From positions 4,627,620 through 4,691,619 of the forward strand of contig JAJEKV010000072.1 of the NCBI GenBank assembly GCA_021234155.1: a DNA stretch of 64,000 nucleotides, read 5' to 3'. Position numbers and translations under genes: made by a program. This DNA comes from Isoetes taiwanensis. Its lineage: Eukaryota > Streptophyta > Lycopodiopsida > Isoetales > Isoetaceae. Shown here one piece after another: positions 33,923-64,000 of the stretch. Numbering within the stretch: position 1 is the first letter of the stretch; every line of letters starts with the position of its first letter. The notes under the pieces were generated by a model. It searched no databases and was not told the origin of the DNA. It saw only the letters and a list, made by a program, of their open reading frames with translations.

Positions 33923-35692
33923 TCATGTATCACGTTCATTGTCTGAATCTTCTTTGAAAACATTTGCAACTTTGGCTACAACTTTCATTTTTTTGGTTCT
34001 GTTGGCATCTGAAACCAAAATACATTACAGATTATGACTTTTTTAGATCCCGCCGACGATGAAATATAAATTTACCTTCGTAGCGATGGCTTTTGAAGTA
34101 AATCCGAACTTTAAACCAGATCTTTTATCTTGAACTGGAACATGTACTGGAGCAGCAGCACTTGAGACCACTGCTTGCTGTTGTTGTTGTTGCTCTGTTT
34201 GTTGCCGCTGTGCTTCTGCCTATTGTTGTCGTTGTGCTTCCGCCCTAAAAATCTTAAGGATTACAAAGTAAAGTAACTCAAGACCTATCTACCATACAGA
34301 TGGTGACATGGATACTATTGGACAAACTTTGCCATTTGCGTCTGGGCGTTTGGTCTAGTGGTAACACACTAGTTCCTTTGCAATGTGGTCTCGAGTTCGA
34401 GACCGCCCAGAATCGCACTCTGTACTGCTGGGGGTCAAATCCCAACAGACGCAATGTAAGGTGGTTGGGGGCAGGGCCCAACCAAGCAATGTAGTGTGGT
34501 GTGTGGTCACATGTCCAGTTGGATGCTGCCTAGTGGCGTGACGTTAAAACTACTATCTATCTATCTATCTATCTCTTGCGAGCTAGTTCTCGTTTTGCTC
34601 GTTCATCACGGTCTCGATTTGCATGGAGCTCCCTCATTTCCCTGAAACGCTGTGTAGTAAACCCATCCTTGGTTTAATATTTGTGCAAGACTGCTTATGC
34701 GACATTTTTCACAACATGAGCTAAAATTCAAGCTCAACAAATAGCACTAGAAAGATCAATTATAACTAACCTTCTTATGATTGTGATCGTAGGAGCTAAG
34801 ATGTTTTTCAAACTCCATTGCCGACTTGTACTGTTTGTTACAAAGTTCACAATAGAAGACTTTCTGAATCTCCTTCACCTCTATCTGGATCTTCTGCTCA
34901 CGCTCGGCTTCAACCTGAAGATCATCACGCCCATGGGGCCAAGGCAGACCACCAAGGTAATAAAGCCAGAACCAGGCAGGTGCAGGTGACCTCAACGAAA
35001 CTATGTAAAGTGTGTGAGAAAATACTAATATTCAGATTTCAGTCATATCATCTGGAAACAGTAAACAAGGACAGTTTTCCACATGTTCCAGGTACTTGAG
35101 AACTAGACTGAGGACTTCTTCGCATTATCATTAAAAGACTCGTGTAAACAACTTTCCTATCAGACACCATACCTCACGCTTTTTGGTAAGCTCTATTGTT
35201 TCCTCTATCTCGACTTCAAGTCGTTTTTGATGTACATTTTCTTCAGCCGTGTAAAAATCATCTTATTCTTGTTTTCCAAGGCCCAGCTTTGGATCACGTA
35301 TCCCTGCCTTGCTGTGTTCAACAATGCTTATTAACAACAAAAATATTTTTATTTCAAACAATTGCATCTAACTTGAGCTTCAGAAATAGAAAGCCATCAA
35401 CGTATACATTACCTTGTTCCTCTTTCCCAAGTCCCCTCCCTTTCCAACCCATCTTTTGGAGAAGACGAAAACCAACATTTGAGGATGACAGCTGAGTATC
35501 TAAAGAAGCTTGTTCCAAATTTTCAAGATCCAAATTTTCTGATGGCCTATGGGTGATGGGCAACCTAAATTCTTCCCCCATATCTTCAACAAGAGAGTCT
35601 TCATATGCCTGTAAAGCAAGAAAGGTGCTTACTGTTGTGTTCCAATAGAACAAAATATTGGGTCTATACCTGTTCTCTTGCTGACGTCTTCC
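33923..35692 (-). pseudogene. G-patch / C2H2 zinc-finger protein gene (At5g26610-like), SINE-interrupted, with stops
   Basis: The exon chain can be read on the minus strand. 35692-35413 reads GRRQQENRYR, FYWNTTVSTFLALQAYEDS and the G-patch NVGFRLLQKMGWKGRGLGKE, ending at a GTAATG donor. About 35327-35171 reads KAGIRDPKLGLGKQE then DDFYTAEENVHQKRLEVEIE. 34914-34771 has the zinc finger FYCELCNKQYKSAMEFEKHL and SSYDHNHKK. About 34646-34581 reads REMRELHANRDRDERAKREL. 34244-34076 is Q-rich and ends GLKFGFTSKAIATK. 34008-33923 ends VFKEDSDNERDT with TGA. G-patch proteins of this type act in pre-mRNA processing as helicase cofactors. One TAA replaces a glutamate codon before DDFYTAEEN and one TAG interrupts the Q-rich exon (AEAQRQQ*AEAQRQQ). 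The first exon was not found, and a SINE lies at the end of exon 4. It is most likely a pseudogene, otherwise a misassembled or alternatively spliced gene. Confidence 0.8.
34341..34575 (+). mobile_element. tRNA-derived SINE in the G-patch gene
   Basis: The head (34344-34408) is tRNA-like: GGGCG...CGCCC acceptor pairing, a box A-like TTGGTCTAGTGGTAAC and a box B-like GAGTTCGAGACC (34393-34404), the internal promoter of RNA polymerase III. A unique body follows, then a (CTAT)n tail at about 34549-34573. TTGCG flanks both sides (34336-34340 and 34576-34580), a candidate short target duplication. The element is antisense to the host gene and sits at the end of exon 4. SINEs depend on a partner LINE; which one is not clear from the sequence, since its 3' end does not share the LINE hairpin module. 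Confidence 0.8.
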
Positions 35693-36639
35693 TTGAGTAG
35701 ATGTGGCATTTGATGGATGCCAATCCTTGAAAATGATTAATACTGCTAAATACAAAGGGAACAGTAGGATCTCAGAATGCTACTAAAATGGATGGCATAT
35801 CTATAATTTGAACATACAAATGTACCGTGCATGCAATGTCAACAAGCATTATGTGACCTTCAGGTTTTAGAAAAGAAAAAGTTAATAACAAACATCGAAT
35901 TACCATCAAAATAATTCTTATGTAACTTTTGTGATTATGCGAGAATTAATTTGATGCTTCCATAGAGTTAATCATGACAGCAAGGAAAAATGCTGCAACT
36001 CAGTTGAGTGGCCAGGACTCTCGGCTTTAAACATGTAGTGTGAGTGTGGTTTGTCTTAGGTTAAAAAATAGAACAGATAAGATGACTATGAAGGACCACA
36101 TGCATGAGCAATGATACACCAACTAATGCCTAATGTAACAAATCGGATAAGCAAACAGACTCCAAGAAGAAGATTCAACAGCGTCTTCTCTTTAACACAA
36201 TGGCCAGCTAGTACAACACCAAGGACCTAGCCCAACCTCACAATTCGAGTTAGCAAAAGCAGTATTCTTACCTATTAGGTTGATTTCTTATGTCTTCACA
36301 GATTGTTATTGAGAACAAAAATTGCACACCGTGTTGCAAAAATAAGGGATACCAGACTGTAGCCCAACTTCTTTTCCCATGGAATGCTGCCGCCGAAAAT
36401 CGCCTCCCCCTTCAGATAGGCTTCAGATAGGAGATGGGAAGGCCAGATACTAAATCCCACACTCTTATGCCTGGTTGCCCAGAGCAGGCCTCTCCAGTTC
36501 GCCAGTTTCAAGAGTGGCTGCCCAACAACGAAAACGACCGAGAGTTTACAGCCAATGACGGGTTTGGAGCAGTCATAGGCATATTCCAAGCATATACTGG
36601 CATATACCTATAATATGCCACAAACCCACATAAACAAGG
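35693..36639. other. Stretch with no recognisable gene
   Basis: This is where the missing 5' exon of the G-patch gene would be expected, but I found no frame resembling it. A 98-codon minus-strand frame (36589-36296) has no recognisable domain. Confidence 0.45.
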
Positions 36640-38155
36640 TGTGACGTTCCAGCACAGTATACGGTCCCAGGACGTATACTGTACTGGCTCGTCACGCGTA
36701 CACGCCATCTCGATTGACGTGTACGCCGACGTGTAGCTAAGCAAGTAGCACCCTAGGGGGCAACTTGCAAGTGTGTGCACATTTATTCATGTGTACACTT
36801 TAGCCCACTTAATTAATATAGGCAAGTGGGCCACACCCATTTATCCCACATGCTCAAGGGGTAATAGAAACCCTAGCCCTAACCCTTAGTCTATATAAGG
36901 TATATGAAACCCTAACTTTCCATTTTCGTCCACAACCTTCTAGAACTCCGTTTTGCTTGCTCCAAGAGCCAATCTCACCTCCCGAAGTCTGTCTGAGCAG
37001 CCTAGCTCATCAGCTTCCCTTTCTAGTTTCATCTTCAAGCGGTTCTGCAGCATGGATGCATTCAGAGCAGGAGGAGCAAGCCAGGGATCAGGTATTTTGC
37101 CAATTCAATAGTCTAAACCGCCTCCCAGACATAGAGTAAGTAGGTTTAGCCTATTGATTTGCCCATAGCATCCATCTAGATCCCTAGATATCAAGCCATA
37201 ACTAAAGAACCTAACTCTGTGATCTAGATTAAATCTTATTCTTTAGTTCTTCTATGATATGTATGTGATGATGATCTCTGTGGAATCATTGTATTGGGAA
37301 GGGGGGTAGAGGCCTTAAAAGCCTAGTAGTTGATGCTCCTAGCTAGCCCTCTTTAATGCACTATTAAATTCGGCCTGTGTACAAGAGCCACAACCTGGTT
37401 GTGGGTGGAGGGGCCAGACTGGCATACAAGGAGGTTCATGTCCTGGCTCGTGATCACGTCCCTCTGGTAGTAAAGCCTATCGGGGACTACAGTGCACTAG
37501 ACCTAATGCTCTCCCACTGCGTGCAGGCTTTGCATGGGTTCGACACTCTTGGGGTGGTGGACACCTTCCATGGAGTTCAAGTCGAGTACGGGCAGTGGCC
37601 CTCTAGTCACCTTGAGTCAGCATGCTAGCCTCTGGTGGGAGTGATCCCTACCTGCCCCATCGGAACTGGGGAGATGCAACCCAGGAGTAGCCCCTTTCGC
37701 TATGCATCCGGCGGGCTACAGTCAGGTCCCAAGACTTTTCAACCTACTCTGCAAAGTGTGCACAGGAGGGGCGGATGGAGTGGACTACCCCAAGCCATGT
37801 TCTTATGCCAGCCAAATCCATTGCCATGAATTCTGTCTGCAATAACTTCTGGAGGACCAAACCGTCAGTCATCCCTCTTGAGTCTGAGCCTTGGGTAGAG
37901 TCTCCATATGTGATGTGCTGATATTTGTCTATGCAGATATGTGGTGAGCCATCCTTCGTGATGGTCATGATACTGACATGTATGTTTACGCTTCCGCAGG
38001 GAGACAGGGTAAAATGACCCCTTCATTCTTCCCACTGGAACTCATCAAGGTTGCAGTGACACGTGGAGGGCCTTGTATCAGCATGGAGCTGGTATGGGGG
38101 ATGAACTCCTGTTTGTATACGGTGAGTGCACCGTATATGAGTAGGGGACGTCACA
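36640..38155 (+). repeat. 5' LTR (1516 bp)
   Basis: It opens TGTGACGTTCC and closes GGGGACGTCACA, so the ends TGTGACGT/ACGTCACA are inverted repeats with the standard TG...CA. A TATA box-like CTATATAAGG lies near 36891, followed by a CCCTAACCCT-rich leader. GTATACGG recurs near both ends (36657 and 38116). The tRNA primer site begins one base after the last A, which fixes the right border. Confidence 0.85.
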
Positions 38156-38156
38156 G

Positions 38157-38168
38157 TGGTATCAGAGC
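38157..38168 (+). promoter_or_regulatory. Primer-binding site for initiator tRNA-Met
   Basis: TGGTATCAGAGC, the 12 bases complementary to the 3' end of plant initiator methionine tRNA and the usual plant LTR-retrotransposon primer site. It starts 1 base after the LTR. Confidence 0.92.
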
Positions 38169-38340
38169 AATGTTCTTGAATACCAAGAGCAAAGCACTGG
38201 CCATGCTCCCAGTAGTACTGACTTAGTAGAATTCTCAAACCTCGAAAAAGTGGGAAATTTTTTTTCTCATTTTTTTGTAGTTATGTTAAGCTAGTAACAG
38301 TTAGAAATTGAACAAAAAACTTCATTAAGTGCAGAAATTG

Positions 38341-38403
38341 CTCATGGTATGCGCCAGAGCACCAACCTAAATTTTAGGTTGAGCCCCAGGCGCACACCAT
38401 GAG
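38341..38403 (+). repeat. Leader compound hairpin 1
   Basis: The outer arms CTCATGGTATGCGCC and GGCGCACACCATGAG pair at 14 of 15 positions. The inner arms CAACCTAAA and TTTAGGTTG pair perfectly. Same length (63 bp) and layout as 38553-38615. Confidence 0.85.
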
Positions 38404-38552
38404 TAACTGGCCATAATCACCTTCAAACATGATAAATTTTAACAAGATAATATGCTAGATCAAATTTTAAGGTAAGATTTAGCTAGAATTGTATATTACA
38501 CCCCTAGGAATATGCCTAGAAATCATATAATTTAGTCTAAAATACAAAATTG

Positions 38553-38615
38553 CTCACGGTATGCGCCAGAACCTTGATCTAAATATTAGATCAGCCCTCC
38601 AGCGCACACCATGAG
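38553..38615 (+). repeat. Leader compound hairpin 2
   Basis: The outer arms CTCACGGTATGCGCC and AGCGCACACCATGAG pair at 12 of 15 positions. The inner arms TGATCTAA and TTAGATCA pair perfectly although their sequence differs from hairpin 1, so both sides changed together. It lies 212 bp after hairpin 1. Confidence 0.85.
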
Positions 38616-38722
38616 TAAAATGTTTAGAAAACTCTGAAGTAAGTACATGTTTTAATAGGTTAATAGGTGCTTTGACACGTGAAAATGAGTAACTTAGAGT
38701 TTGACCTAAAATTTGCCCAAAC

Positions 38723-38730
38723 TATAAATA
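38723..38730 (+). promoter_or_regulatory. TATA-box-like site ahead of the H3-type coding region
   Basis: TATAAATA, with an AAACTATAAATAGACCC context typical of plant core promoters, 102 bp before the ATG at 38832. The coding region may therefore have its own promoter as well as the LTR promoter. Single motif, so only suggestive. Confidence 0.4.
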
Positions 38731-38831
38731 GACCCAAACCCCTCTCATTTGTAGACTTCCTGTCTAGAAGTTAGCTCCGCACTTCGAGGCGATTTTTGGG
38801 CGCCAGAGCTCCGATTGACGTGAAGTAAGAC

Positions 38832-40076
38832 ATGGCGCGCACCAAACAGACTGCTCGGAAGTATCGACCAGGTGAAATGCCTAGTGCCCAAGATAAGAGG
38901 CGCATACAGCAGCTACTTCGGGAGCAACTTCTCGCAGGAGGAGACCAACCTTCATCAGGCGAGGAGAGCACTTCAGACTGCAGGAAGAGGGATCCGAGCA
39001 AGGATCACAAGAAAAGATGACCGACGTCATCGACCAGCAGGTGGACGAAGAAGCAGACATTGGGTCAGAGGACGACCAAATTCAAAGAGTGTTCGAGCAA
39101 ATGGAAAAGGAAAGGGCAGAACGGGAGCAGGCGGCCAAGGAACAGGAGCAGAGGGAGCCCACTTCCGAGCCAACCATAGAAGAAGAGCTCGAGGCTTGGA
39201 TCAAAATGCACGAGGCGAAGGCACGACGCCGCGAGAAGAAAAAGGCCGAGAAGAAGAGGAAAAGAGAAGAAAAGGAGGCAAAGGAGGCAGAAGAAAAGAA
39301 GAAACTTAAGGGCAAAGACAAGGAGGAGCCCAAGAGGAAGATGAAGAAGACGCCCAACGTAAAGGTCGTCATCAAGGAACGGCCGGCCGACCAGCCCGCA
39401 TCCTCCGACGACTCAGATGACGAGGATTATCAGCCCTTCACCGGCGGAGATCTAGAGGTAGGGAGCTCCTCCAAACCCACAAATGAGGATTGGACAGACC
39501 AAGATCCGCAGGTGCAAGCACCCCCGCCCTACACCCACATGGGAAACGGACAAGGATCCGAAGAAGCCACCCCGACCTGCCCCGGAGTCTTACGTAGTAG
39601 ACCATCTCCGGGTCTATCAGAAGAAGTTGAAGGCACACAAGGAATATATGAAGAAGTGGGAGGCCTACAACTCCTACTACCAGGCGAACAAGGTCACCTA
39701 TGTTGAAGGAGGACGGCCATCAAAGAAGCAGACTCTCAAGCCGCCTCCAGAGAAGCCTACTCCTCCCAAGAAGCCAAAAGCCAGGAAAGCCAGATCGAAA
39801 CTGTCACAAGCAATCCGGGAGATCCGGCATTTTCAGAGAAGCTATGGTCTTCTCATTCCCCGTGCACCGTTCGCCAGGCTCGTGAAGGAAGTCGTGCAGG
39901 AATTCGACTCCGGCATGAGAGTAACAGGCGAGATGCTGCTGGCCTTGCAAGAAGCAACTGAGCAGAAGCTGGTGCAACATTTTGAAGATTCGACAGCGTG
40001 CACTATACATGCCAAGAGGATAACTCTGATGACCAAGGACATGCACTTGACCAGTTCCATTAAAGGGGAACGCTAA
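38832..40076 (+). pseudogene. Histone H3-type coding region of the LTR element: H3 tail, long charged linker, H3 fold
   Basis: Parts in order: (1) the ATG at 38832 opens MARTKQTARKYRPGE. The first nine residues after Met equal the universal H3 tail with K4 and K9, and YRPG matches the H3 segment before the fold. (2) A linker of several hundred codons (about 38880-39810) is strongly acidic/basic and probably coiled-coil (EKKRKREEKEAKEAEEKKK), with an acidic patch (SSDDSDDEDY) and a P/K-rich end. (3) At 39813-40076 is the H3 fold: IREIRHFQRS, LLIPRAPFARLVKEV, ALQEATEQ, FEDSTACTIHAKRITLM, ending GER. Loop 1 has the canonical H3 length, not the longer CENH3 form. The rest of the N-tail (S10 to K37 region) is replaced by the linker. 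AATAAA-like signals follow 40076. It lies 664 bp after the primer site, where gag would be. It looks broken or spliced, with about two discontinuities. Confidence 0.8.
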
Positions 40077-41305
40077 TTTTGTAAATAATAAGTTTTGTGA
40101 ATAAAAAGTTGTTCTGAGTAAATTATAAGTGCATAAATGTTGTTAATTAGGTTGAGTTAGCGATAATCGCTTTTTGTTTTAGTTAAATTGGACATCTTAT
40201 GATCAATTAGTGAGAAGTTACTCACACTATAACCCCAAATTTGGCTCTATGTGTAGTTTTGTGCTATCTTTTTTGCCAAAAAACAACACCTGAAGACCAC
40301 CCATAGTATTGTTCCGAAAATGCTAGAAACAACATGTAGTTTTTGTCTAAAAAGTATATGCATAGAAATTTGACAGTCTTTTAATAATATTCAATGTGTT
40401 GTTTTTTGGTGTTGTTTTTTGGTGTTGTTTTTTGTGTTGTTTTTACTAAAAAATAACGTGTCGTTTAACAAAATATCTACATGTGGTTTTTTAAAGTAGT
40501 AGTTATTTTTAAATGTTGTTTTTGCCAAAAAAACAACATGTGGTTTCAAAGAATATTCACGTGGATAGTAGTTGTTTTTAAGTGTTGTTTTTACTAAATA
40601 ATAATATGTGGAATATCCACATGTGATTTTTTAAAATAGTTTTTAAATGTGATGATTCCCAAATAAAGATGCATGGTCCTAAAGAATATCTACATGTGGT
40701 TTTCATGCATATACCAAAATAAAAATAAAAAAGCATTACCAATTACATATCAACACATGGCATCTTTATTAAATAACAAAAGCATATTTTTCTTGTATTT
40801 GTTTTTTCTTTTAAGATAGCCTTTTTGGGAATCGAACCCAAACAAATCCATTAGACATAATATTATAAATTGCAACAGAATCTAACATTAGATTAAACAT
40901 TAGATTAAAACATAACGTTCAAAATATTACCTAGGTTTTACTTAAAGTTCAAAACATCAAATTAGTTTATTTCAATGCGCAAAATATTTCAGATTCAAAC
41001 ATTCTTAATGTTCAAAACATTAGACGTTCATGATATTTGTTTGAACAGTTCTGCTCACAAGTTCCAGCCAGATTATTTGAAAAGTCGAGAAGGGGAGTAC
41101 CATGGCATTAGCTTCACCTCAAACTCTGCTCAAAATAGGGGAAATGCCCGGGGGGTGCACCTCTATATATGGACAGATGGCATCTGCGTTCGAGGGGTCA
41201 TAGAAAAACCCCTGTATACGGCTTTTTGGAGTAAAAAAACCCATACCATACGGTTTTTCGAACTAACATACAATATAGACCCTATCCGTAGATTTAACGA
41301 TTGAT
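40077..41305. other. T-rich stretch with GTTGTTTTT repeats, no gene
   Basis: GGTGTTGTTTTTTGGTGTTG-type words at 40398-40445 and scattered ACATGTGGTTTTT words to 40700. No gag/pol frame and no second LTR is present. A 109-codon frame at 40975-41304 has no recognisable domain. Confidence 0.5.
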
Positions 41306-43508: not shown

Positions 43509-45745
43509 AGAACAGTGGTCGGATTTTTTTTTTTGTTGAAGGACGTCAGACTTTATTCAATCAAAGAGTCAAATACAAGTATAAATGCAGAGACAGGAAT
43601 AAAATCTCAGCGGATAAGCAGAGACCCACCGAGTGAAGCAACCTGCCTAAGCATAAGAGTGCACATCCAAATACTCTTCAAAAATCAATCGCCTCTTGCG
43701 AGGGGCAAGTGAAGAACAATGATACGACTTTACAATGTAACCTTGAGCTTCTTGGAGAACACGATTATCTGCCACATCCAGACCTTTGAAGATTACCAAT
43801 CTTCGTCTTTTCCAGATAGTCCAAAGCAACCATCCTGCTGCTAGATGAAAAGCCTGGCCTTGTAACTCTGTCCAGGTACTTGGGTAAATTGCCAAAAGCA
43901 GTTGTTGACTTGTTAGTGAAACCTGAAAAAGGGAAAACAACCAGTCCCATACCTGTCTAAGGTGTTCACACATGAAAAAGCAATGCTCAATGGTCTCAGA
44001 TCCACGCTTGCATCTTTGGATTAATCGATTTGATATTCTAGGGTTAAACTTATGGACAAGCACATTAACCCATGAGACACCTATGAAGAATCTGCCACCA
44101 AAGAACTGCCACTTTAGGATGAAGTAGCTTGTCCCATGCCCAAGACCACACCTTCTGCCATTGAAGAGGAGGAAGTTGAAGAGACCACTTATTAGACGGA
44201 GGAAGAATATCAGTATCAAGCAACAACTGATACATAGAGTTCACAAGTTTGCACTCCTTAATTTCTTCATGACAAACCCATACCAAAATATCTTCTTGGT
44301 GTGGCAGAATAGGCTGTAGAAAATCAGCAACTTTTTGCCAAAGAACTCTATCCCATCGCCCCAATAGAAACTTTAACTGAAAAGCCTCCCATGTCAGCAA
44401 CTGGCCTGAGTCATACCATGCTGCAATAGTTAAGATTCCAGCACTTTTCCAACGTCTTTGAGTCAATGGGTGCACTGTAAAGCAAAGTGGTTGATTGTCT
44501 ACCAGAGGGATCCACCAACAAGGTGCAGTCAACTGTACACAAGCAGTTGGACTGATGTGAAATAAAGTTTTGACTGTGTGCCAGGAATCTAACAATCCCT
44601 TTAAGAATGGAGAAGCATTATGATAAGGCCGCAACTCATAAAATAAACTCCATGGAAGAACAGGTTTGAGTGTGACTTTACCAAAAGGGATACAGTAGGT
44701 AAGAGCCTGTGCAATAAGCCGTAACCCAGGAGAATCATCCTTACCTACGAGAAGCCGCCAAATGAATTTTGAGATCATAACCTTACTCTGCAAATGGAAA
44801 TCTGTCATGCCCAAACCTCCAGCAGACTTAGGTTTTATACACTTAGACCATGCAACCTTCACCACTGCCCCTGCTTCATTTCCACCCCAGATAAAGTTTC
44901 TAACAACACCCACAATCTCCTGAAACTTTGAGTGGGAAGCAAGAATGGCAGAAGCCATATAGACATGTGTGTTGCTTAAGACATGCTTAGCAACTGTTAC
45001 CCTTCCGGGCATAGATAGCTTAGCAGTATCCCACCAAAAAGGTGCCTCCAACCCCTCGATTATAACATCCCAAGCATCGAAGTTGAAACATGAATACCCT
45101 TTGGGATACCAAGAAGCTTGGTTGCCTTCCCATGAGGCAACACCTTCCGGGGTAAGCAAGAACACATGGTGGGACTTCATCATCTAGAGTCCACAAAGCG
45201 TAACACTTTTGCCAATCGACCAAAACTCCGGAGGCTAAGGAAAATGTGTCAAGCGAAGCTTTGCATTTTGGAGGTTATCAAAGATTCGCTTTCAAAAATA
45301 GAAAGGTATCATCCGCATCTTCGATTAATAATTTCTTGAGAGCCATTTTCCATAGGAAGACCCCTGATCACATCATCCTCAGCAGCACTAGAAAATAATT
45401 GTCAAAGCACCTCTGCCACTATTGTAAAAAGCAATGGAGCCAAGGGGCAACCTTGACGAACTCCTCTACCAACAGGAAAGACAACAGAGGGCTCTCCCTG
45501 GAAGAGTACTGTAGATCTTGCTGAAGTATGCAACTTCATGACATCTCTTGTGAATGGGATACCAAACCCTAAAGCCAATAAACACTTCTCTAAAAAACCC
45601 CAATCCACACTGTCATATGCCTTGGCAAAGTCAAGTTTGAGATACACAATACGATGGGCCTTTAGCCTTGCCCAATACATACCTTCATAGGCCGCTGCAA
45701 CATTATCAAGAATACACCTTCCAGGCAAGAACAGTGGTCGGATTT
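43509..45745 (-). mobile_element. 5'-truncated plant L1-type LINE with an 18-bp target duplication
   Basis: AGAACAGTGGTCGGATTT occurs exactly at 43509-43526 and 45728-45745 and brackets the LINE (43527-45727). The 3' poly(A) shows as a T run at 43527-43534. The 5' end stops inside the reverse transcriptase domain, the usual result of incomplete target-primed reverse transcription. The sequence beyond 45745 is the older target DNA, so the apparent continuation of the frame past that point is accidental. Confidence 0.9.
43647..45727 (-). pseudogene. LINE reverse transcriptase (partial) with zf-RVT C-terminus
   Basis: It starts at FLPGRCILDNV and continues YLKLDFAKAYDSVDWGFLEK and GRGVRQGCPLAPLLFTIVAE, core motifs of non-LTR reverse transcriptase. 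The catalytic box normally YADD reads DADD (45308-45319, EDADDTFLFLK). One tyrosine-to-aspartate change plus frame changes makes it inactive. A long frame (45183-44065) carries the thumb/connection region (GRVTVAKHVLSNTHVYMAS, GGLGMTDFHLQSK). The C-terminus (44219-43647) has the zf-RVT block CKRGSETIEHCFFMCEHLRQ and WTIWKRRRLVIF. Endonuclease and ORF1 are missing through 5' truncation. Confidence 0.85.
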
Positions 45746-45967
45746 GGGCTGCTGCAAAAATATAACCATTCGATAGACAAGTATAATACAGGGTAAACTT
45801 GTGGGCTATGATATGATCAATCCTTTGTACTTCTAAAACAATTCTCTGGATAACCTTTAAAACATTCTTTACAAAGTCAGGTCCACAAACCCATAGGAAA
45901 ATAAGGGATCTTGATGTCGTTACACTTACGATACAAGCAAAGAGCATGGAAAAGATGATGTGGCCCT

Positions 45968-48412
45968 CCAATTGGTGACATGGCATGCCAAGTAAGCAAG
46001 GTCAATTTTTTACTAGGCCATTAATGAAAAGATGTACATCTTTGGTTTTTCATGGGGTGGCGTTGGCAAATTTCGGGTGACATCACCTAGAATCCAGCAT
46101 GCCAAGGTGGCTCAAACATGCCACCTTGGCGCCAACATGCCAAGGTGACCGTTGAATCTGCCATTCAAGTGACCGGCTTCGAGTAGGCTCAAAAAAATCC
46201 AAGATCCGTCCAGGAGAACTTATCAAACCACGAAGCGTCCTGCGGGTTGACCGCGTAGAAAACCAAATGTTTTGTCGTTCGGGCAGTACAAAGGCTCCGG
46301 AATGGAGATTTGACTTCGCCATGCCATCCGGAACGGCGAAATTACCCTAGGGACCAAGTTACACGGTCATTTTTTGCAACAAAAAAAACACGAACCCTCT
46401 ACATGGCAGTATTTTGCAGCCATCTCTTAGACCAATTGACTACGAACATGTTAGAGATGAGCTACTTTGGCGCTTCTTGGAAAAAGGGTAGTCTTCTGCT
46501 ACGAAACTTGGTCTCCAGGGTAATGTCAACGTTTTGAGTCCATTGGCAGAGTCTGTTCACAGTTCCGGAGTGGGAAAGTTGCCCGTCCGTGGCCATGGTT
46601 CTTTGGGAGAGGACCTTTGGGGCGAACTGCCTCCGAAAGGTTTTAAAGGTCCATCTTCTGGCATCAACACCCTCCCTCTACGTGATGACATTGTGCAAGA
46701 TTTTGGTCGAATCTGACTAGGATATAGCCTCTGAAACGTAAACCTTGTGTGTTGCTAGGTTATTGAAGGGTTTACGTTATGGGGGTCGAGTTTTAGTCGG
46801 TTGCACTTGGGACATAGTTGAGAAGCTGCAATTGAAAACATGAAGCAATAGGAACTGATGGAATGGGTTTTGAAGTTATCCTCCTCCCAGTGTGGCAATT
46901 AGAAGTCGAGAGCGCCTTTTGCAGTAGCAAATTTATTTGGGATCATTCGGGATGGCCAATAGATCCAAACTCTGTTATTTCAGTTGCCATGGCTCCGCAT
47001 ATGCGTTTAGCAAAGGTGCACCTAGCTATCCAAGAAAATGACCACGTTTTGGCCTACGAAACTATCCAAGAAAATGACCACGCTTTGGAGGCCAAAATGT
47101 GGTCGTTTTCTTGGATAGCTAGGTGCACCTTTGCTAAATGCACATGCGGAGCCATGGCAACTGAAATAACAGAGTTTGAATCTATTGGCCATCCCGAATG
47201 ATCCCAAACAATTTTGCTACTGCAAAAGGCGCTCTTGACTTCTAATTGCCACACTGGGAGGAAGATAAATCCAAATCCCATTCCCTCAGTTCCTATTGCT
47301 TCATATTTTCAACTGCAGCTTCTCGACCATGTCCCAAGTGCAACCGACTAAAACTCGACCTCCATAACGCAAACCTTTCAATAACCTAGCAACACACAGG
47401 GTTTACATTTCGGAGGTCGTATCCTAGTCAGATTCGACCAGGATCTTGCACAATGTCATCACATAGAGGGAGGGTGTTGATGCCAGAAGACGGACCCTTA
47501 AAAGCTTCCGGAAGCAGTTCGCCCCAAAAGTCCTCTCCTGAAGGCCCCTGGCCACGGACGGGCAACTCTCCCACTCCAAAACTGTGAACTGACTCTGCTA
47601 ATGGACTCAAAATGTCGACTTTACCCTGGGGACCAAGTTTCGTGGGCAGAAGACCACCCCTTCTCCAAGAAGCACCAAAGTAGCTCATGTCCAACACGTT
47701 CATAGTCATTTGGCCTAGGAGGTGGCTGCGGAATACCGCTATGTAGAGGGTTCATATTTCTTTCGTTGCCCAAAATGACCATGTAACTTGGTCCCTGGGG
47801 TAATTTCACCATTCCGGACGACATGGCGAAGTCGAATCTCCATTCCAGAGCCTTTGTACTGCCCGAACGACAAAACTTAGTTTTCTACGCGGTCAACCCG
47901 CATGATGCTTCGTGGTTTGATAAGTCCCCTCGGACGGATCTTGGATTTTTTTGAGCCTGCTCGAAGCAGGTTACTTGAATGACAGATTCAACGGTCGGAT
48001 AGGAAAATTGAGCTCTGAGGGGGATTGGCATTTGCCCTCCGAGAGGAGCGCTGATAGGAAAGGCTATCTCGACAACCTTTCTAAGGTCCATCTCCTTGGG
48101 TCTGGCCTCTCCCCTCTGGTGAGAAAGCTGCGCAAAGTCCTGGCCTGGTTCGATTTGGGGAAGGGTGTCAGCGCTTTAAGTTCTTCAAGATCCCTCTATT
48201 CTATCCCTTGCCAAACTCCTCTACAAAAATTTCAAAGGTTATCATATTTCTTGCATAAAGTTCTAGTCATCATATCCATGTCACCATTATCTAGCCATAT
48301 CACCTAAAATTTGCCAACATCACCCAATGAAAAGACCAAAGATGGACATCTTTTCATTTTTGGCCTGGTCAAAACTTGACCTTTCTTATTTGGCATGCCA
48401 TGTCACCACTTG
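45968..48412. mobile_element. 2.4-kb near-palindromic foldback element
   Basis: The left arm runs from about 45968 (CCAATTGGTGACATGGCATG) to about 47085. The right arm, its inverted copy, runs to about 48412 (CATGCCATGTCACCACTTGG). Matching blocks at all depths include CTCCATTCC(G/A)GAGCC.. (46300/47838), the GGACCAAGTT(A/T)CA region (46345/47785) and GGTGCACCTAGCTATCCAAG (47017) against its complement at 47113-47132. The unpaired centre is about 50 bp, with doubled ATCCAAGAAAATGACCACG. Arms look about 90 percent matched by eye near the centre. Open frames occur in both arms but mirror each other and show no domain. Transcription would give a very long hairpin RNA. Target duplication not identified. 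Confidence 0.8.
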
Positions 48413-50905: not shown

Positions 50906-53900
50906 TAACAAGGTGACCTAGCAAACACACTAATGACCTGTGTTTGCACCACAAAAAGGAATCTTTCAAAGATTCCCTAAAAAAACCTAAAATTTGCCAC
51001 TTTTGGGGGGTCAATTGAAAAAACAGCCCTCAATTTTGATTTGCGACACCCCTTTTTTGGTCCAAAATTACAAAACTTTTGTTGTTTTGTGAATTCTAGA
51101 CACCCAAACAAGGTGTAAAATTGGAGTCACCTTTAGAAAGATCTAGGAAATACAAGAAAACTAACAAAATTAAAGAACCATTAGAATCTTGACAAAAAAT
51201 GAAAGCAAGACAAGCAAAACTTGGCGTATCTATTTGTTATTACTCTAGAAGAACCACAAGATGCTATGCACGCATAGGCAACAGAAAAACTTACAAGACA
51301 TAACTAACATGTCTGATAGCATTTGGCGCTTATACAAGACATGGAAAAACATGGAAAAACTTGGAAGAAGCTATGCGGGCTTGGCAATGGCCTTCAACAT
51401 GTACAAAAAACTCTAGCCAAAACTAGGAGGTAACGATGTGCCCACATTTAGATTATACAAGAAGTTTACGGCCTTTGAGAAGAGCAGGATTAGGAATGTC
51501 GTTATACTCGTCAACTCCTTCAGACTCGTCACCACTGTCCTCATGCCACTCTCCTCATTGTCACTTGAAGTGGTCGAAGAGCTAACCGCTGGAACACTGT
51601 CCTCATCCTGAGAAGCTTCGTCTGAACTATCCTCGCAGAAAGACTTCAGTAAGTTAACTGTTGTCGCACGTAGCCTGTTATCAACCTTGAGTGTAAAATC
51701 ATAAGCCAGCACTTGAGTTTCGTTCAGGTCCAGATTGTCCATGTGATTCTTATTCATCGTTTTCTTGCCCTTCTTGAAAGGAATTATCACAGGATCATAC
51801 CGACCAACAAAAGGATCTGTATCCTTAGTGGCGTACCAGTGAACTTTCACTACTGAAGGGAGATTGTCTTTGTGTACAATGTCTTTAACCCTTGCAATCC
51901 AGAAAGGACGCTCTTCGTCATCATCAGTCGAAGGTACAGCTATAAGCATCCCCTTACTCAAATCTGCAAGTTTTTCTGGAGTTTGGCCTTGGTTCTTTTT
52001 CAAGGCACGTCTACTTCCGAGGTACATTACACGATCAGGTTCCTTGTTGACTTCAGTACTACAGAACATGGAACCCTTTGCAAATCCTTGGTCTGCCTCA
52101 AGAAGGGGATGGACTTGGCTACCAGGCCAACAAAAAGCAACTTCCAGGGAGATGCTGTTGAGGGATTTAGTTACATTCTGCATTATTGAAAAGAAATTCT
52201 CCCACCAGCCTTTGTCCTCATCACTGAAGTACTTAAAACTTGACCTTATACTTTTCTCCATGCTGGTCAGTGAGACGAAGGGATTTTTGTCCTTGTTCTT
52301 TTCTGTGTAGTCTATGGCACTTTTCAGTGGCTGCTGAATAGCCCTTCTCATTACTTTAGTTTCAGGAACATATTTTAAATATTGTAGGCCTGCTTCAGGC
52401 TGCCAAGTTTGGGAGGTGACAAAGTACTTCCCTTGAAGATGTGCTTTACCCTCCTTGAGAAAAAAACTTTACGTGATGTTGAAATGTCAAATTATTCAAC
52501 TTATGGATAGCAGGACCTATGTCAACATGGCGCTGGAAAACAAACTCACGAAAATCAAAAGTCTCGCTAAGCACTTCGACAACTGGAGTTGGATTGTAAG
52601 CTTGCTCAATCACACTGCACAAGGGGTAAAGACAAAATGCTTTTTTCCTACGCAACCGCACAGAAAATCTGCTGAACATTTGGTCTATTTGATCATGGGT
52701 GTGGCCCACAAGTAAGAAACCAACCTTGACCTTTCGGAAGATACCCAGCTGGACCAGCATTGCGCAATAAGCAAATAAAACTTGATTTTTGTTTTCTCTA
52801 GTAGTATTGTCTAACTGTATGTACAACACTGGAGGCAGCTTCTCCTTTGCTAGCAAAATCTTATTTAGTATTGTCACCGTGAGGTTAGGATCGTTGTGTA
52901 TATTTGGATACGTCAAAAATACTCTGCACTGTACAACACCATGAAGGATCATTGCCCCAACCAGATGAAGCCTCAAAAAATCGGATTCATCTAAATCCTT
53001 TGGAACATTTATAAAATGAGGAAGTGACGTCTTCTTTTGGTCCATGCCGTCTACCACCACAGACATATATTCGAGTGGCCTCTCCAAAGATTTCTTTCTA
53101 TGTTTTGCTAGCTTCTTTCTCTCCAAGGCTTGAGCCTCTCTGTGAACTTGCAACTCTTGAGTTATCTGATCTGCAATTAAGGACATTAGTCAGTACCTTG
53201 AAGCAATAGTAAGGCTCCACAGAACTGCAACTAAGCTTTTGTAGCCGTGCTATGCACGCATAGGCAGAGCTTTTAAATAGGCGGGAAGGGGCGAAGCTAC
53301 AAGATTGAAGAGACCTACTGTGCGAGTGCTACAAGATTGAACTATGCGCACATAGACAAACTCACAAGACTAAATAGCCGTGCTATGCCCGCATAAGACA
53401 ATGTTTCTAGCCGTGCTATCGAAAAGGGATTAGACGAAAAGGACGTACTTTGTTCTAGAATAATAAGATATGAACTTCTGACTTGAACACTGAAAAAGAT
53501 CCTTGTACATGCTGTAGACTTCTTTCTTAGTAATATTGTCTGTCAGATGATATACAGGACTGTTTGGAAGTCGCTCGCAGTTGGAGTCAAAGAAACCTAC
53601 CAGCCAAGCTTTTGCTTCTAGGCAATACATACCTACCACTTTTTTTGGGTATGAATAGTCATCAATGCACGGGTTTCTGTCTAACCTCTTTTGCACTCTT
53701 GACATGCGACGACTTCCAATGGCATGTATTCTTTTAAAAGCAAGTTGGCACACTGTGTTGCTCGAAACATAGTATGAAAAATTGTCTCCAAGTTCAGGCC
53801 TTACACTGTATGCCAAGTACAACTCTTGATCACCTTTCGACATTGACAAAAACCAAACCAAACCTTTTGTAGTCTTCTGAATCCAAACCACAATAATTGT

Positions 53901-53930
53901 CCAACAACATAGGCCATGCTTCAATCTCAT
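50906..53930 (-). mobile_element. DUF7869-type DNA transposon, copy 1
   Basis: The left border comes from comparison with the second copy: TAACAAGGTGACCTAGCAAA begins both 50906 and 58252, while the sequence to the left differs. Shared text then runs through CACTAATGACCTG into the C-terminal coding region. The right border is unclear; no inverted copy of the left end was found, and coding similarity to the family fades near 53900, where a DCN1-like sequence begins. Intron-like parts contain the palindromic word GCTATGCACGCATAGGC at 51263 and 53249 and variants at 53342 and 53382. Confidence 0.65.
51413..53930 (-). CDS. DUF7869-type transposase-like protein (nearly open)
   Basis: Minus strand. 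Exon a (about 53880-53449) reads YLAYSVRPELGDNFSYYV, VCQLAFKRIHAIGSRRMSRV and WLVGFFDSNCERLPNSPVYH, the usual N-terminal half, and ends at a GTACGT donor (53448-53443). Exon b starts near 53170 after a TTGCAG acceptor. It has EYMSVVVDGMDQKKTSLPHF (first D), YIQLDNTTRENKNQVLFAYC (second D) and FLLVGHTHDQIDQMFSRFS, an RNase H-like DDE/D core. The C-terminal part (52351-51413) has PFWIARVKDIVHKDN, VHWYATKDTDPFVGRYDPV and an acidic serine tail. The only clear break is one extra T in a run near 52465; six instead of seven T would link KFF to LKEGKAHLQGKYFVTSQTW. Such proteins are common in plants and animals. A transposase role is inferred from the core motifs and from the second copy in this window. 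Confidence 0.75.
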
Positions 53931-54411
53931 TATAATTCTCGAAATCGGGCTTTACCTCTTCAGCAAAACGCAAAAAAGAAGCCCATTGATCCAGATTAAG
54001 ACCCTCGTATGCCCTTTGCTCCTTCAAGAACTCCAAAAACGAACTAAAAGCCCTTAAATGTTTCCCATTTCGCATCATAAGCTCCAACATCTGGCAAGCC
54101 ACGTCCAATTCCAAGGTCTTCTGCATCGGTTCGGTCAAGCAATACTTGAAAGCAAAGGCATAAACATCCCTAAAAATGGCCAGATCTTTGGAAACCTGGT
54201 GCCCTAATTTATCAAGAACCCTGCGCAAGAGATCAAAGAGGGAATGGATGGAATCGGGATTGGATTTTTTTGGAGGATGAGGAGGAGCTCGAGCTTGAGA
54301 TTTCTGGCGATGGCTGGATCTTCTGGGGGCTTTGGGCTTTGGATGGAACTGGAACTGATGTTCAGCCAGCAAACGGGCGGAGCAAGATTCGGCTCTGCAA
54401 GAATAGAGCAA
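53830..54411 (-). CDS. DCN1-like (DCUN1, cullin neddylation) reading frame
   Basis: A single frame of 193 codons, with DCN1 (potentiating neddylation/cullin-binding) similarity at residues about 58-173: FRDVYAFAFKYCLTEPMQKT, LELDVACQMLELMM, FLEFLKEQRAYEGLNLDQWA and ENYNEIEAWPMLLDNY. This matches plant and animal DCUN1D proteins ('FAFRYCLTEEKQK', 'NMDQW', 'AWPLILDNFVEW'). DCN1 promotes NEDD8 transfer to cullins. Residues 1-57 are S/P/R/K-rich and unlike the usual UBA or EF-hand half. After DNY the similarity ends and CGLDSEDYKRFGLV follows, within about 60 bp of the transposase frame on the same strand. The lack of introns suggests a retrocopy or a captured exon. A functional protein would lack the family's last helix. 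Confidence 0.75.
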   Translation of the reverse strand: MLYSCRAESCSARLLAEHQFQFHPKPKAPRRSSHRQKSQARAPPHPPKKSNPDSIHSLFDLLRRVLDKLGHQVSKDLAIFRDVYAFAFKYCLTEPMQKTLELDVACQMLELMMRNGKHLRAFSSFLEFLKEQRAYEGLNLDQWASFLRFAEEVKPDFENYNEIEAWPMLLDNYCGLDSEDYKRFGLVFVNVER

Positions 54412-55440
54412 ATCGATGCCCTCTTCTTCGGTGCCCTCTTCTTCGATGCCCTCTGCTCATCTAATCCTAGCTGTCCAAATATTAACCATTAAATCTCAAC
54501 CCTAAATCTCAGCCTTTGGATTTAGGGCTGGGTCCAACACTTACACTAAAAATTTATAATATACAAGAAATTTATTGCGGCGGCCTACATTTCTCTTTCC
54601 TAAATTCTTTGCTAAAAGAGGTTTTTGTGTTGGGTGGTAATCTTGATCTTGGTTCTAAGATGCAAGCAAACTATTTATATGTTAATAGAATCATATTACT
54701 TCATGAATACACACCCTACCACCACTCTCATTAAAAAACCTTCATCTAGAAGAACAAATTAAGAAGATTCCTTTTGCAGTCTCTAGTATTCTTACAAAGA
54801 CTATGGCGTCTCCTCCATCTCATGTATAAGAATCCCAACGTGCCATCAATGGCTAAAATGCATTTCAAAAATGCTATGTGAAGGTCTATACAGACTTCCA
54901 ACATGCCATCAATGGCTAAAATGCATTAGAAAAAATGCACAACTTAATAATAATCTAGAATCATGTTGCATGTGAAGATCCAATGCATATTGATATGCTT
55001 TGAGCAAAAACTAAGGTCAAAATTCAGGTCTATTCTTTAGGCCAAAATTCAAGTCTATTCTTTAGCTTGAAATTCAATGAATTCAAATAGCCTGAATTCA
55101 ATAAATTCAAAATAGAATAGAAGGAATGACAAATTGCCATGGGATAATGCGTTGTAGCCGCCACAAACGTTTCTTTTGGTCCAAACACGTGGAGTTGCAC
55201 CCAACGTTAATGTCCAATGTGTGTCTATTCAAAATTTGTCAGAACTTTAATTTGATATTAACATGCCTACACCATGGGCATGATATTAACTTGATATTAA
55301 CGTGTCCATGACAATATTCATATTGTAATTGATTTTAAGATAAACAAAAAGACATAACAGTTGCAAAAAATGTCAAATAAAATATGATGCATGTTTAACT
55401 ACTTGATGTCGTGCATTGAACAATGCACTTCGTTAATGAA
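54412..55440. other. Stretch with a small tandem duplication, no gene
   Basis: ACGTGCCATCAATGGCTAAA and its near copy recur about 61 bp apart (54839 and 54900), each followed by ATGCATT. AGGTCAAAATTCA(A)GTCTATTCTTTAG is also doubled near 55015-55060. Nothing coding is recognised. Confidence 0.5.
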
Positions 55441-59385: not shown

Positions 59386-61835
59386 TTTTTGAAGAACGTG
59401 TTTTACTTCATATTTCAATCAATCAATCAATTTATTATCACGCCATTTGAGGGACCCTCAGGTCCATATGGCAAAACAGTACAATGGTTCTTTTTTGGGC
59501 AAAAAAATGAATAAAGAACTCTGTGAAAAATCAGAACATGAACATCCCAGAGTTTTCGAGTAGTGACATATGCTCATATAGATGTATGACATCCAGTCTC
59601 TCCCTAAAAATAGACTTTAGGTACATCCCTAGTTTGGATGGCTGTGTCCTGAATAATTCTTTGAGATTACCAGCATTGACATCGAAGGCCTCCCGAATAT
59701 GCTCATAGGATGGGCAGAAGAGCAAGGCGTGGGTCTCATCTTCAACCTAAGGTTCTACCAAGCAACAGGGGCATAGACGATCTTCACGAGCTAGATTTTG
59801 CCATCTCCCAGTCTCTATGGCGAGGTGGTGAGAGGAGAGCCGCGTCCTGGAAATGATTCTTCTCAGGTCTGGTCTAGTATCTTGCCCAAGATATGGTTGC
59901 TCGCCATAGGTATCAAGACTATTTATTTCTTTTTTATAGAAGGTCGCTTTCACACTATTTTCACAATCTTCACAAAGTTTGGCAACTGCTATAGCTGATA
60001 CAAAAGTTTGCAATTCATCCCATTTATGAGGCCAACTGCCAGGTGATATACCCCATTTATGCGCCCACTTAATTACTGCGGCATACCATCCGTTTAGCTT
60101 CCCTTGAGAATGTGTTAGTGCCAAGGCAGGAAGACGATCTGGGTCTAGATTTGAGATTCTATTCAGGTAGTGAAGCGTTTGGCAGAGTGCATCAATCTCA
60201 ATTGGAACTGTTCCTGTTTCCGCCAAAAGCATGATGTAGGGTGTTTGAGCTTTGACACCCAATTCTTCAACCAAGAATCTTTTTTGTACTCTTTCTAGCT
60301 AATCCAGGTGCCCAGGCCTGACACCCATACAACATTACTGGTTTGACTAATACACCAAAAAGCAGCTTGCGCAAATGCCAACTCTCAAGGTTATTTCGCA
60401 CACAGATCTGAAAAAGAGCAAATAGTGCCCTTAATCCACCCGCTGCTCTCTTTGATGCTGCAATAGTCCACTTATAATTGGATGTCATTTCTATCCCCAG
60501 GTATTTGTACTGATTAACAGTTTCTAATGGAATATCTCCAATTGAAAATTGGGCATGAGAGCGCGTGCCAAAAATCAGAATTTTAGGCTTAGAATGGTTA
60601 ACTGACATACCTTTTTGTACACAGAAGTTGTAGAAGGTATCTAAGTGCGACTGCAAGCCCCGTTGGATTTTAGAAGTCAGCACAATATCATCCGCAAAGA
60701 GCAATAGTTTCACGACATAGCCGCATAGCTCGGCACCAACTCCATTGCTGCTGTCAAGCCAAGATTCTATTTCGTCAATGAAAAGCCCGAAAAGCATTGG
60801 TGAACAGGGGCAGCCTTGCTTAACTCCAATGGTGCTTTCTATCAGCTTGTCTGATTTGAGAGGAAAAGAAAGCCCTACCAGGACTTTTTTGTATAAGTAT
60901 GCTACTGCCTCCTTGAGAGCAAAAGGAACTCCAAGTGCATCCATTCTGTCTTGGGTTTCCCCCGATCAACTCTGTCAAAAGCCTTAGTGAGATCCATGAA
61001 TGCCAAGAATAATTGGTTGCCACAGCCCTTTGCATTCTCTGTAAGTACTCGGAGTGTTACTAAATGGTCCAGAGTAGAATATCCAGCTCGAAAACCAGCT
61101 TGACATGCTGCTCTAGCATTTGCTTTTGTAGCCCAATCCACCAATTTCCGTTCAATTAGAGAGGCAAAGATCTTTGCCATGGTATTCCCAACTAAAATTG
61201 TCCTGTAATTATGTATCTCATGTTTATCACCACATTTAAATATTGGGACAGCCCGACTCACATACCAAGCATCTGGAAGACTACCATTTATGAGCACCAA
61301 GTTGAAAATATTAGCAAGTTTCTCAAAGAGTAGGCCACCTCCCCACTTGCATAATTCAGATACCATACCAAGATTGTCAGAGGATTTGCCATTTTTCAAG
61401 CGTGACAATGCGTCGTCTACATCTTCAGAGGTGAAGATTTCACCACTTATAGGATGCGCTTGAATCATTTTTCGCTGGGCAGGAATCATATACAGCTCAT
61501 GCAACCACGAAACCATCTCTTCTGTTGTAAAATCATAGTCTGCAAGGGGCTTCTTGGTTATATTCCAAAATGCTTTTGGTTCTACTAACACACGTTTTGC
61601 CAGTTCCTTTTCATATGTGCGCTGCCATTCATGTTTCTTCCGTCTCAGAAGCTTCTTGTAGGACTTGCTGGCCTGCTGTTTGTCAGCAGCCCTATTCAGA
61701 GCTTGCTTGGCAAGTAGACAATCTTTATCAAACCATTTCTGATTATGACTGCCATTTCTGGGTTTGGTAGTCCCAAAGATTTCCTTTGCCACAAGTAGAA
61801 TGGTTTCAATCAGAGTATTACTGTATGCACTTGCA
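59386..61835 (-). mobile_element. RIETGRW-type LINE, long copy with reverse transcriptase
   Basis: The 3' end is marked by (TCAA)n-type text (59400-59430) and ATTATCACGCC. ORF2 can be read from about 61792. A linker/RT N-terminus (61792-60902: KKHEWQRTYEKELAKRV, IHNYRTILVGNTMAKIFASL, GFRAGYSTLDHLVTLRVLTE, FLAFMDLTKAFDRVD) precedes an RT C-terminal half (60944-60267: VKQGCPCSPMLFGLFIDEIE, LLLFADDIVLTSKI, intact FADD, QYKYLGIEMTSNYKWT). The C-terminal domain (60274-59531) has SRTRLSSHHLAIETGRWQNL, CPCC and LLFCPSYEHIREAF. There are two frameshifts (near 60950 and 60275) and one stop before EDETHALLFCPSY. The endonuclease is absent, so the copy is 5'-truncated. Confidence 0.85.
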
Positions 61836-61843
61836 TCAAAATA

Positions 61844-63368
61844 TTACAAAGTACTTCCAGAAGTAAGAAATGTCCCTGAAGCATCAACCACTTTTAGATG
61901 ATCACTCCATATTGGAATTTTAATACGATCAGGCCAATTGGAGATCTGAAAGCAATTGTACAACTTCTTACGATTTTCTTGAAGCACCATCTGAGAAGAA
62001 ATACGCTTATCATAAAAGACCTTTCTTCGCCTTCGCTTCCATACACTCCATATTAGCCAAGACTTTGCCATGTGAAATGCAATCCTTTTAGAAGCAATCC
62101 ACTGATTTGGATAAATACCCAAAAGAAAGTGCTGACTATCCAAAGATACTCCAAAAAGAGAATGCAGCCAGGACCTAAGACTACTCAGCTCTGCACACAA
62201 ATATAAACAATGCTCCAATGTTTCAATGCACCACTCACACTGGGCTTACTCCCGGCTTAAAGCGATGAACCATCTCATTAACTCTCAAAGAGCGATGAAT
62301 CACCTGCCAAAGTAGAACATTTACCTTTGGAGGATTATATTTAGACCAAACAAGGTTCCAGATGGATTGCCATTGAGAAGGCAAAGTCTGTAAGTGCCAT
62401 TTTCGAGAAGGTGATAAAGTACTTGAGGAGGTAAGCAATTTGTAGCATGAACTTACTAACTTCTTGCCTTCTTTAATACCTTGAACAAAGTTCCAGCATC
62501 TCTTGTTACCCACCTTCTTAATTAGAGGAAGAGCACTTGCTACATAAGCCCATATACTGATATCTTTATCCAACAACCCATATGTCTCCTGAAACCATTG
62601 CCAAGGAGCAATGTCAATACCAAAATACCACTGTTCAATAGAAATAATACCTGCTCTCCTCCACCTCGCTTGGGAATGCGCATGCATAAATTCTACAACT
62701 AGGTGTAGTTGTCCATGAGTATACAAAGGCAACCACAGAAAGGGGGAAGATGCCTGGAGATAAGCTTCCCAATCAAATGTAATCACCTGCTGGACTACCT
62801 TCCAGGCCCGAAGCAAGCCTTTCAGTACTGGAGAGGCATGTGAATAAGCTTTCAATGGATATAACAATGCCCAAGGGATCTCAATTCCCACACCTCGCTT
62901 ATGAAAAACCATACACTTCTTTACTGATTGTTTAAGTAACTTCATACCTGGTGATGCACAATCATCTTTCAACAAACTGAACAATAGCTTAGAAGATAAG
63001 ACCTTAACATGTAAAGAAAGATCCAACATACCAAGTCCTCCTTGTTGTTTAAACAACATACATTTCTTCCACGCCACCTTCACAGTGCCTCCTTTATCGG
63101 TACACCAGACAAAATCTCTTACAATCTTTTTTATCTCTGCAAACTTAGAAGCTGGAGCCAATAGAACCGAAACCAAATAAATATGCGTACTGTTCAATAC
63201 TGACTTAGCTACTTGAATTCTACCTGCCAAGGATAACTTTGAACCTCTCCACCAAATCAGTTGCCTTTGTAAGTTTAAGATAATTTCATCCCATGCTTCA
63301 TTCATGTCAATATCTAGACCAAGAAGCTTTGTCTTTGCAGATGATACAACAACCTTCCAGGCATACTC
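61844..63368 (-). mobile_element. Plant L1-type LINE fragment (RT C-terminal region and zf-RVT)
   Basis: Same lineage as the LINE at 43.5-45.7 kb. A frame at 63305-62235 reads GRIQVAKSVLNSTHIYLVSV, GGLGMLDLSLHVKVLSS, WALLYPLKAYSHASPVLKGL and VNVLLWQVIHRSLRVNEMVH. After a frameshift near 62225 the zinc block CEWCIETLEHCLYLC and the tail WSVWKRRRRKVFYDKR (62218-61844) follow. The RT catalytic core is absent (5' truncation near 63368), and no poly(A) is seen at the 3' side, where the next LINE begins. No convincing target duplication was found. Confidence 0.8.
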
Positions 63369-64000
63369 ATATAATAAATAATAATATTATGATCACGCCC
63401 GCAAAAGACCTTGAAGGTCATGGAACGACAGTATACATCAATCAATCAATCATGACCCAATGTCAAAATGAGTGTCCTGTGTAGCTCAACCTGATGGAGG
63501 AAGTGGCTTAAAGCACTTGCTGGTTCCATCATCCATAGAGAATAAAAACTTTGAAAACTATGGCGACAAATACCAAGTCTATCTCTAATATCATCGTAAG
63601 CAGGGCATTCTAGAAACACATGGAATTCACTTTCCACCTTATGATGGTCACATAATGCACAGATTCGGCTCTCTCTTGGAATTTTCCTCCATCTTCCTAC
63701 TTCAATTGCTAGATGGTGTGAGCTAGTTCTGTATCTGGCAATAATATGCCTGGCACGTTTTGAGATTCTGGCTCTCAGGTAGCATTGGTCTGTGTAAGTC
63801 AACAGGGGATTAATATCCTCTAGATAGGTAAGCATCCGTGATCCCTTCTTTTCCCATAAGATCTCTACCGCCTTGGTCTGGACCAGATCTCTAGCGCCCA
63901 GATCAGTAGTAGGCCAAGAGTCTGCTGTTATTCCCCATCTGCCCGCCCACTTCATGACATCATGCAACCATCCTGATGTGGTGGATGCTAGCGATGCTAT
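63369..64000 (-). mobile_element. RIETGRW-type LINE, C-terminal part running off the window
   Basis: The open frame from the window edge to 63446 reads MKWAGRWGITADSW, ISKRARHIIARYRTSSHHLA, IEVGRWRKIPRESRICALCD and FHVFLECPAYDDIRDRLGI. It has no stop from 64000 down to 63446, so this C-terminus is well preserved. The 3' end has a short hairpin (GACCTTGAAGGTC near 63409), (TCAA)n text at 63437-63450 and ATGATCACGCC, like the LINE 3' end at 59400-59460. These two copies form a subgroup whose 3' end differs from the (TATTC)n-tailed one. Confidence 0.8.

Follow-up and report, generated by a model that had tools for sequence, protein, structure and literature searches.

A candidate LTR retrotransposon of Isoetes taiwanensis with an intronless H3/CENH3-type histone fold in the place of gag

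Capture of a histone by a mobile element has been described in fungi, where hAT transposons of Pseudocercospora fijiensis and Pyrenophora tritici-repentis acquired histone H3 (PMC6710886). Plant long terminal repeat (LTR) retrotransposons are reported to capture genes frequently (PMC3726574, PMC13317346), the word 'histone' being absent from the main text of both reports. Integrase domains are also described by which LTR elements read methylated H3K9 or are supposed to encounter CENH3, and the group I chromodomains, known in plants from the LTR elements of non-seed species, are said to be similar to the H3K9me2/3-binding chromodomain of fungal MAGGY (PMC3350952, PMC12786077). Among the matches listed by searches of open-licence PubMed Central papers, none described an LTR element bearing a gene for H3 or CENH3. 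Here we describe a locus within a stretch of 64,000 nucleotides from Isoetes taiwanensis (contig JAJEKV010000072.1; this whole stretch is called the window, and its positions are used throughout) that we read as a non-autonomous LTR retrotransposon, represented by its 5′ portion, with a captured, intronless H3/CENH3-type gene at the gag position. We put the probability of this reading at about 0.5. The figure covers anatomy and origin, namely that an LTR element captured the gene and owns it, and is shared with one of the alternatives weighed below, in which such a gene has no role, so that the estimates for the alternatives overlap with it.

The region from 36640 to 38155 (plus strand, 1516 bp) is a convincing 5′ LTR. 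It has TG...CA inverted ends of 8 bp, TGTGACGT (at 36640) and ACGTCACA (ending at 38155), and contains a TATA-like CTATATAAGG from 36891; its first 25 nt occur once in the window when up to three mismatches are allowed. One nucleotide 3′ of the LTR, on the same strand, lies the primer-binding site TGGTATCAGAGC (38157-38168), a 12-mer that is the sole match on either strand of the window and that we take to match the 3′ end of plant initiator methionine tRNA. This site and the plant-CENH3 residues of the fold both point to a plant as host. A coding region starts 664 bases 3′ of the primer-binding site, in the same orientation, where gag is expected. An earlier note on this DNA had placed a histone H3 tail and fold inside an LTR retrotransposon; the 5′ LTR and the primer-binding site support that placement in part, and no second LTR copy was found in the window.

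The coding region begins with the tip of an H3 tail. Its N-terminal piece (38832-39020, plus strand) starts at an ATG at 38832 (context GACATGG) that opens MARTKQTARKYRPGEMPSAQ, and positions 38832-38861 encode MARTKQTARK, identical to H3 when the methionine is counted; YRPGEMPSAQ... follows, and the frame stops at 39018-39020. Because an in-frame TAA (38826-38828) precedes this ATG, it marks the true N-terminus. The motif ARTKQT occurs a single time in the six frames of the 64 kb, and a chance origin of the tail is ruled out by the exact ten-residue match at the true N-terminus. In a phmmer comparison with the PDB the piece was colinear with H3, with 13 of 20 residues identical in the best printed alignment and an E-value of 0.28, which is weak because the match is short. 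A contiguous canonical H3 tail (residues 1-44) was not found: identity spans MARTKQTARK only, and a long linker comes next. The 'split H3' of the earlier note is one reading of this layout; another that suits it equally is an H3 variant whose tail has become much longer, as the colinear alignment extends over positions 1-20. Reading YRPG as residues 41-44 joined to the tail was also considered; the colinear alignment explains these residues equally, and neither version is claimed.

The linker extends over about 300 codons and is visibly charged. It lies in a second frame (39017-39706, plus strand; open from 38897 to 39703) and matched no Pfam family above cut-off, a weak TPR_25 match (E 0.0064) remaining below the cut-off of that family, and the basic stretch 39540-39791 gave no match in the PDB at E 1. 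The C-terminal piece (39483-40076, plus strand) is in the frame of the tail again, open from 39462 to 40073 with a stop at 40074-40076, and encodes the basic end of the linker followed by an H3-type fold. Codon usage, scored with two clear stretches of the coding region as the training set, passes from one frame to another near 38940 and near 39465. The coding region is either broken by two frame changes or holds short introns. The ATGA overlap at 39017-39020 is not claimed as a site of termination and reinitiation, an A before TGA being common. The H3 tail at the start, the fold at the C-terminal end, the long charged linker between them and a region broken or spliced in this copy had all been described in the earlier note, and these descriptions hold.

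The fold itself occupies 88 codons without an intron (39810-40073, plus strand; AIREIRHF...GER) and is of H3/CENH3 type by Pfam, PDB and alignments. The earlier note had proposed comparing this region with the Pfam histone profile and placing it in an H3/CENH3 tree. When run on 39483-40073, the Pfam comparison returned the Histone family well above cut-off (E 9e-26, 91 bits, cut-off 26.4), while for the C-terminal piece the CENP-T, CENP-S and TAF folds stayed below theirs. In the PDB the same piece matched H3 chains with E 2.2e-24, the best 60 of 176 matches all being H3. Over 90 aligned positions the fold shares 49 residues with rice CENH3, 46 with Arabidopsis H3.3, 44 each with maize CENH3 and yeast Cse4, 43 with Arabidopsis CENH3, 42 with yeast H3 and 38 with human CENP-A; with chicken CENP-A it shares 41 of 88. 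The references for Arabidopsis, rice and maize CENH3 and for Arabidopsis H3.3 were provisional sequences, and a Cse4 reference of the same kind proved wrong at 1 of 98 residues on checking. At 34 H3 structural positions, 21 residues are identical in the fold and 13 are changed. The identical ones include C110, H113, R116, D123, L126 and I130, presumably the H3-H3′ side, and R49, R52, R69 and R83, which we take to be DNA contacts.

The residues of the fold suggest that its parent was probably a plant CENH3 rather than canonical H3. At the seven sites where CENH3 is the same in Arabidopsis, rice and maize but differs from plant H3.3, the fold has the CENH3 residue five times and the H3 residue not once; among the controls, Cse4, chicken CENP-A and human CENP-A each have one CENH3 residue at these sites, and human H3.3 and yeast H3 have none. 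A null in which departing sites were replaced according to BLOSUM62 odds reached five CENH3 states in 0 of 20000 draws. When only rice and maize were required to agree, 12 sites gave five CENH3 states and one H3 state (p 0.00065), and against rice CENH3 alone the 28 differing sites gave eight and five, respectively (p <= 0.0046 for the CENH3 states). An affinity with human CENP-A is unsupported, with four CENP-A and 11 H3 states at 33 sites (null p 0.115). In the best maximum-likelihood tree the fold stands beside plant CENH3 with moderate support (SH-like approximate likelihood ratio test, SH-aLRT, 86.3; ultrafast bootstrap, UFBoot, 83), and FastTree on a smaller set also places it with plant CENH3 (support 0.90). 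The earlier note had supposed that H3 was captured or mimicked; the H3-type tail tip and fold agree with this, and the part that needs amending is the likely parent of the fold, with the qualification that a grouping with H3 is kept by the approximately unbiased (AU) test (p 0.095).

The fold gene is likely an RNA-derived copy, because its 88 codons are intronless and the cereal CENH3 genes described bear introns. Rice CENH3 is described with seven exons (PMC9842635), and cereal alphaCENH3 and betaCENH3 with six and three introns, respectively (PMC8603533).

A number of observations weigh against capture and ownership of the gene by an LTR element, or against CENH3 as its source. Blastn of 36600-41200 found no second LTR copy in the 64-kb window; the 3′ LTR could lie beyond position 64000, or could have been lost. 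Pfam found no LTR-type gag, protease, reverse transcriptase or integrase in 23 stop-free pieces, which took in, whole or for the greater part, 22 of the 43 stop-to-stop open reading frames (ORFs) of at least 120 amino acids, including all four plus-strand ORFs beyond 40077. Regular expressions run on six frames of the window returned no CCHC knuckles and no protease motifs, and four loose integrase-HHCC matches (at 49556 and 34899 on the plus strand, and at 22597 and 11173 on the minus strand) look like chance; the ORF that contains the one at 49556 has no Pfam integrase match. Because of the two frame changes, this copy could not yield the whole protein from one frame unless it is spliced. 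Tail position 10 is tyrosine instead of serine, a change that would abolish the phosphorylation switch of the H3 tail and may disturb K9 methylation, weakening it, or its reading. In the fold, the changed structural positions include K53, K56, R63, K64, R72 and R129. Single-sequence AlphaFold models were poor, with a mean predicted local distance difference test score of 53.2 for a 197-residue piece and 66.4 for a 91-residue piece; the latter had its C-terminal third built as strands, and the models were not used.

On the side of parentage, the counts are mixed when Arabidopsis or maize CENH3 is taken alone, with nine CENH3 and 12 H3 states at 38 sites for the former, and six and seven at 29 sites for the latter (p <= 0.0046 for the CENH3 states in both cases). 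No exact PDB entry was found for the provisional plant CENH3 references. Loop 1 of the fold has the length of that in H3, 1-2 residues below plant CENH3, with valine at the loop-1 aromatic site, and the C-terminus (GER) is H3-like. The tail tip is that of canonical H3, whereas a MARTKH start is known from plant CENH3. The UFBoot value of 83 is below the usual 95 and long branches are a worry; the AU test also keeps placements with Cse4 (p 0.254) and animal CENP-A (p 0.127).

These points bear differently on the other explanations of the locus. In one of them a host H3/CENH3-type transcript was taken up by the LTR element, had no role there and has since decayed, which we hold to be quite possible, if short of an even chance. 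Gene capture of this kind is well attested, with 672 cases reported in rice, 1,343 in sorghum and 424 in maize (PMC3726574), and the fungal hAT capture of H3 is described as having hundreds of inactivated copies (PMC6710886). The two frame changes fit such a history, as does the unremarkable BLOSUM-positive share of the changes, which was reached in 600 of 5000 runs of simulated neutral drift from H3.3 (all drift runs used substitutions, without indels). It accords less well with a tail tip that is unchanged though only 46 of 90 fold residues are identical to H3.3, and neutral drift was rarely as conservative: starting from H3.3 and run to the same identity, a fold that was free of stops and matched the observed mean BLOSUM score or exceeded it arose in 2 of 5000 and 3 of 3000 runs. 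Drift from CENH3 satisfied the same joint criterion (stop-free and mean BLOSUM) more often, in 80 of 3000 runs from the rice protein and 44 of 3000 from that of Arabidopsis, and the case for prolonged purifying selection is therefore weak if the parent was CENH3, a point against the preferred reading.

It is less probable, and in our view doubtful, that two unrelated sequences merely abut here: a 3′-truncated LTR element comprising the LTR, primer-binding site and leader, and from about 38832 either a retrocopy of a host histone or an H3-like gene that has diverged. Such a junction would account for the lack of a second LTR in the window and of an LTR-type pol among the ORFs scanned, and for an AATAAA that begins at 40100, 24 bases past the stop codon. 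The position of the coding region argues the other way, since it lies 664 bases past the primer-binding site, at the expected gag place and in the same orientation, and no junction feature was noticed in the sequence, in which none was sought by a dedicated test. The host's own CENH3 could also be naturally long-tailed in this plant lineage and have been retrocopied whole, without remodelling by the element. The CENH3 states of the fold would follow directly from such an origin, which nevertheless appears improbable, as the tail of about 300 residues far exceeds those of the three plant CENH3 references (about 60-85) and loop 1 is without the CENH3 insertion.

If the histone gene was captured by the element and is owned by it, as we prefer, the histone region would belong to a mobile family, and its protein would presumably be translated from intact copies. 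The product would be a tethered histone, in which a long charged tether joins an H3 tail tip (K4, R8, K9) to a fold. The fold should still pair with H4 and could enter or bind nucleosomes, so that a K4/K9-type tail would be displayed far out on its tether. The displayed K9 tail might then gather the nucleoprotein of the element together with chromatin readers, for example integrase chromodomains that bind methylated H3K9 and are supplied by an autonomous partner. Taken alone, this mechanism is unlikely, and we offer it tentatively. More unlikely still is the fullest version, that a plant LTR family has, where gag would be, a gene for a centromere-type histone of its own whose K4/K9 tail sits on a tether, and uses this histone to make or enter element-marked nucleosomes in order to steer integration or to borrow the chromodomain integrase of a partner. 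Were it true, a mobile element would supply a chromatin mark instead of reading it. An LTR element that carries CENH3 or H3 would invert the role of reader, which bears on centromere drive and on the colonisation of centromeres by elements. The histone sequence is in any case real, and it would be an unusual cargo for an LTR element.

Between the primer-binding site and the coding region, the leader contains two 72-nt hairpins on the plus strand, at 38335-38406 (direct-repeat family D3) and 38547-38618, which are 78% identical. Folded as 83-nt segments they have z-scores of -7.42 and -7.16, respectively, and 0 of 200 shuffles was as stable in either case. The lower stem is common to both and the upper stem differs through compensatory changes; 3 of 23 consensus pairs are altered on both sides with pairing kept, in a comparison of two sequences only. 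The hairpins may serve the element as a signal at the RNA level. Less than 1 kb from the LTR, in the opposite orientation, a G-patch domain exon (35357-35779, minus strand, E 7.9e-11) likely belongs to a host gene.

Elsewhere in the window, pieces of LINE-type reverse transcriptase lie on the minus strand at 43650-46001 and 60905-63386; RVT_1 was matched above cut-off at 45405-46001 and below it at 60905-61843, and two zf-RVT matches were also below, all of them on the minus strand and LINE-type. A long inverted repeat at 46147-47996 consists of three blocks (arms of 560, 231 and 125 nt, 87-91% complementary, with a 23-nt centre) and is foldback-like. The minus strand also carries a DUF7869 ORF (52449-53189, E 6.4e-52) and, about 0.6 kb away, a Cullin-binding ORF (53833-54456, E 1.5e-25). 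A 129-bp direct repeat (1008-1136 and 7396-7524) is 99% identical over a distance of 6.4 kb. Neither Rfam, run with its gathering scores, nor a scan for tRNA genes gave a match in the window. The fold and linker pieces had no relatives in IMG/VR, nor had the fold piece in GTDB genomes and plasmids, collections that do not hold plant genomes and in which absence says little.

Compared with described systems, the locus is closest in kind to the fungal hAT-H3 elements, in which an H3-type sequence derived from a transcript or retrocopy is likewise carried by a mobile element and the P. fijiensis copies have decayed (PMC6710886). Those are DNA transposons and not LTR elements, 94% of the P. fijiensis copies resemble the third exon only, and the available portions of the report describe no layout of tail, linker and fold (PMC6710886). 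The captured genes of rice, sorghum and maize share with it the presence of host coding sequence within LTR elements (PMC3726574); here, unlike in those captures, the cargo stands at the gag position and the ORFs scanned yielded no gag-pol. Plant CENH3 is approached in five of seven plant-CENH3-specific fold residues and in the long tail, and departed from in the H3-length loop 1, the lack of a loop-1 aromatic, the GER C-terminus, the MARTKQTARK start, the intronless fold and the linker of about 300 residues. Finally, like Tcn1-like chromoviruses and centromeric LTR elements, plant families whose dealings are with chromatin marked by H3K9 or CENH3 (PMC3350952, PMC12786077), this element would be concerned with histone H3. 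In those families, as described, a reader (chromodomain or CR motif) is borne on the integrase, whereas here it is the histone-like target that is carried.
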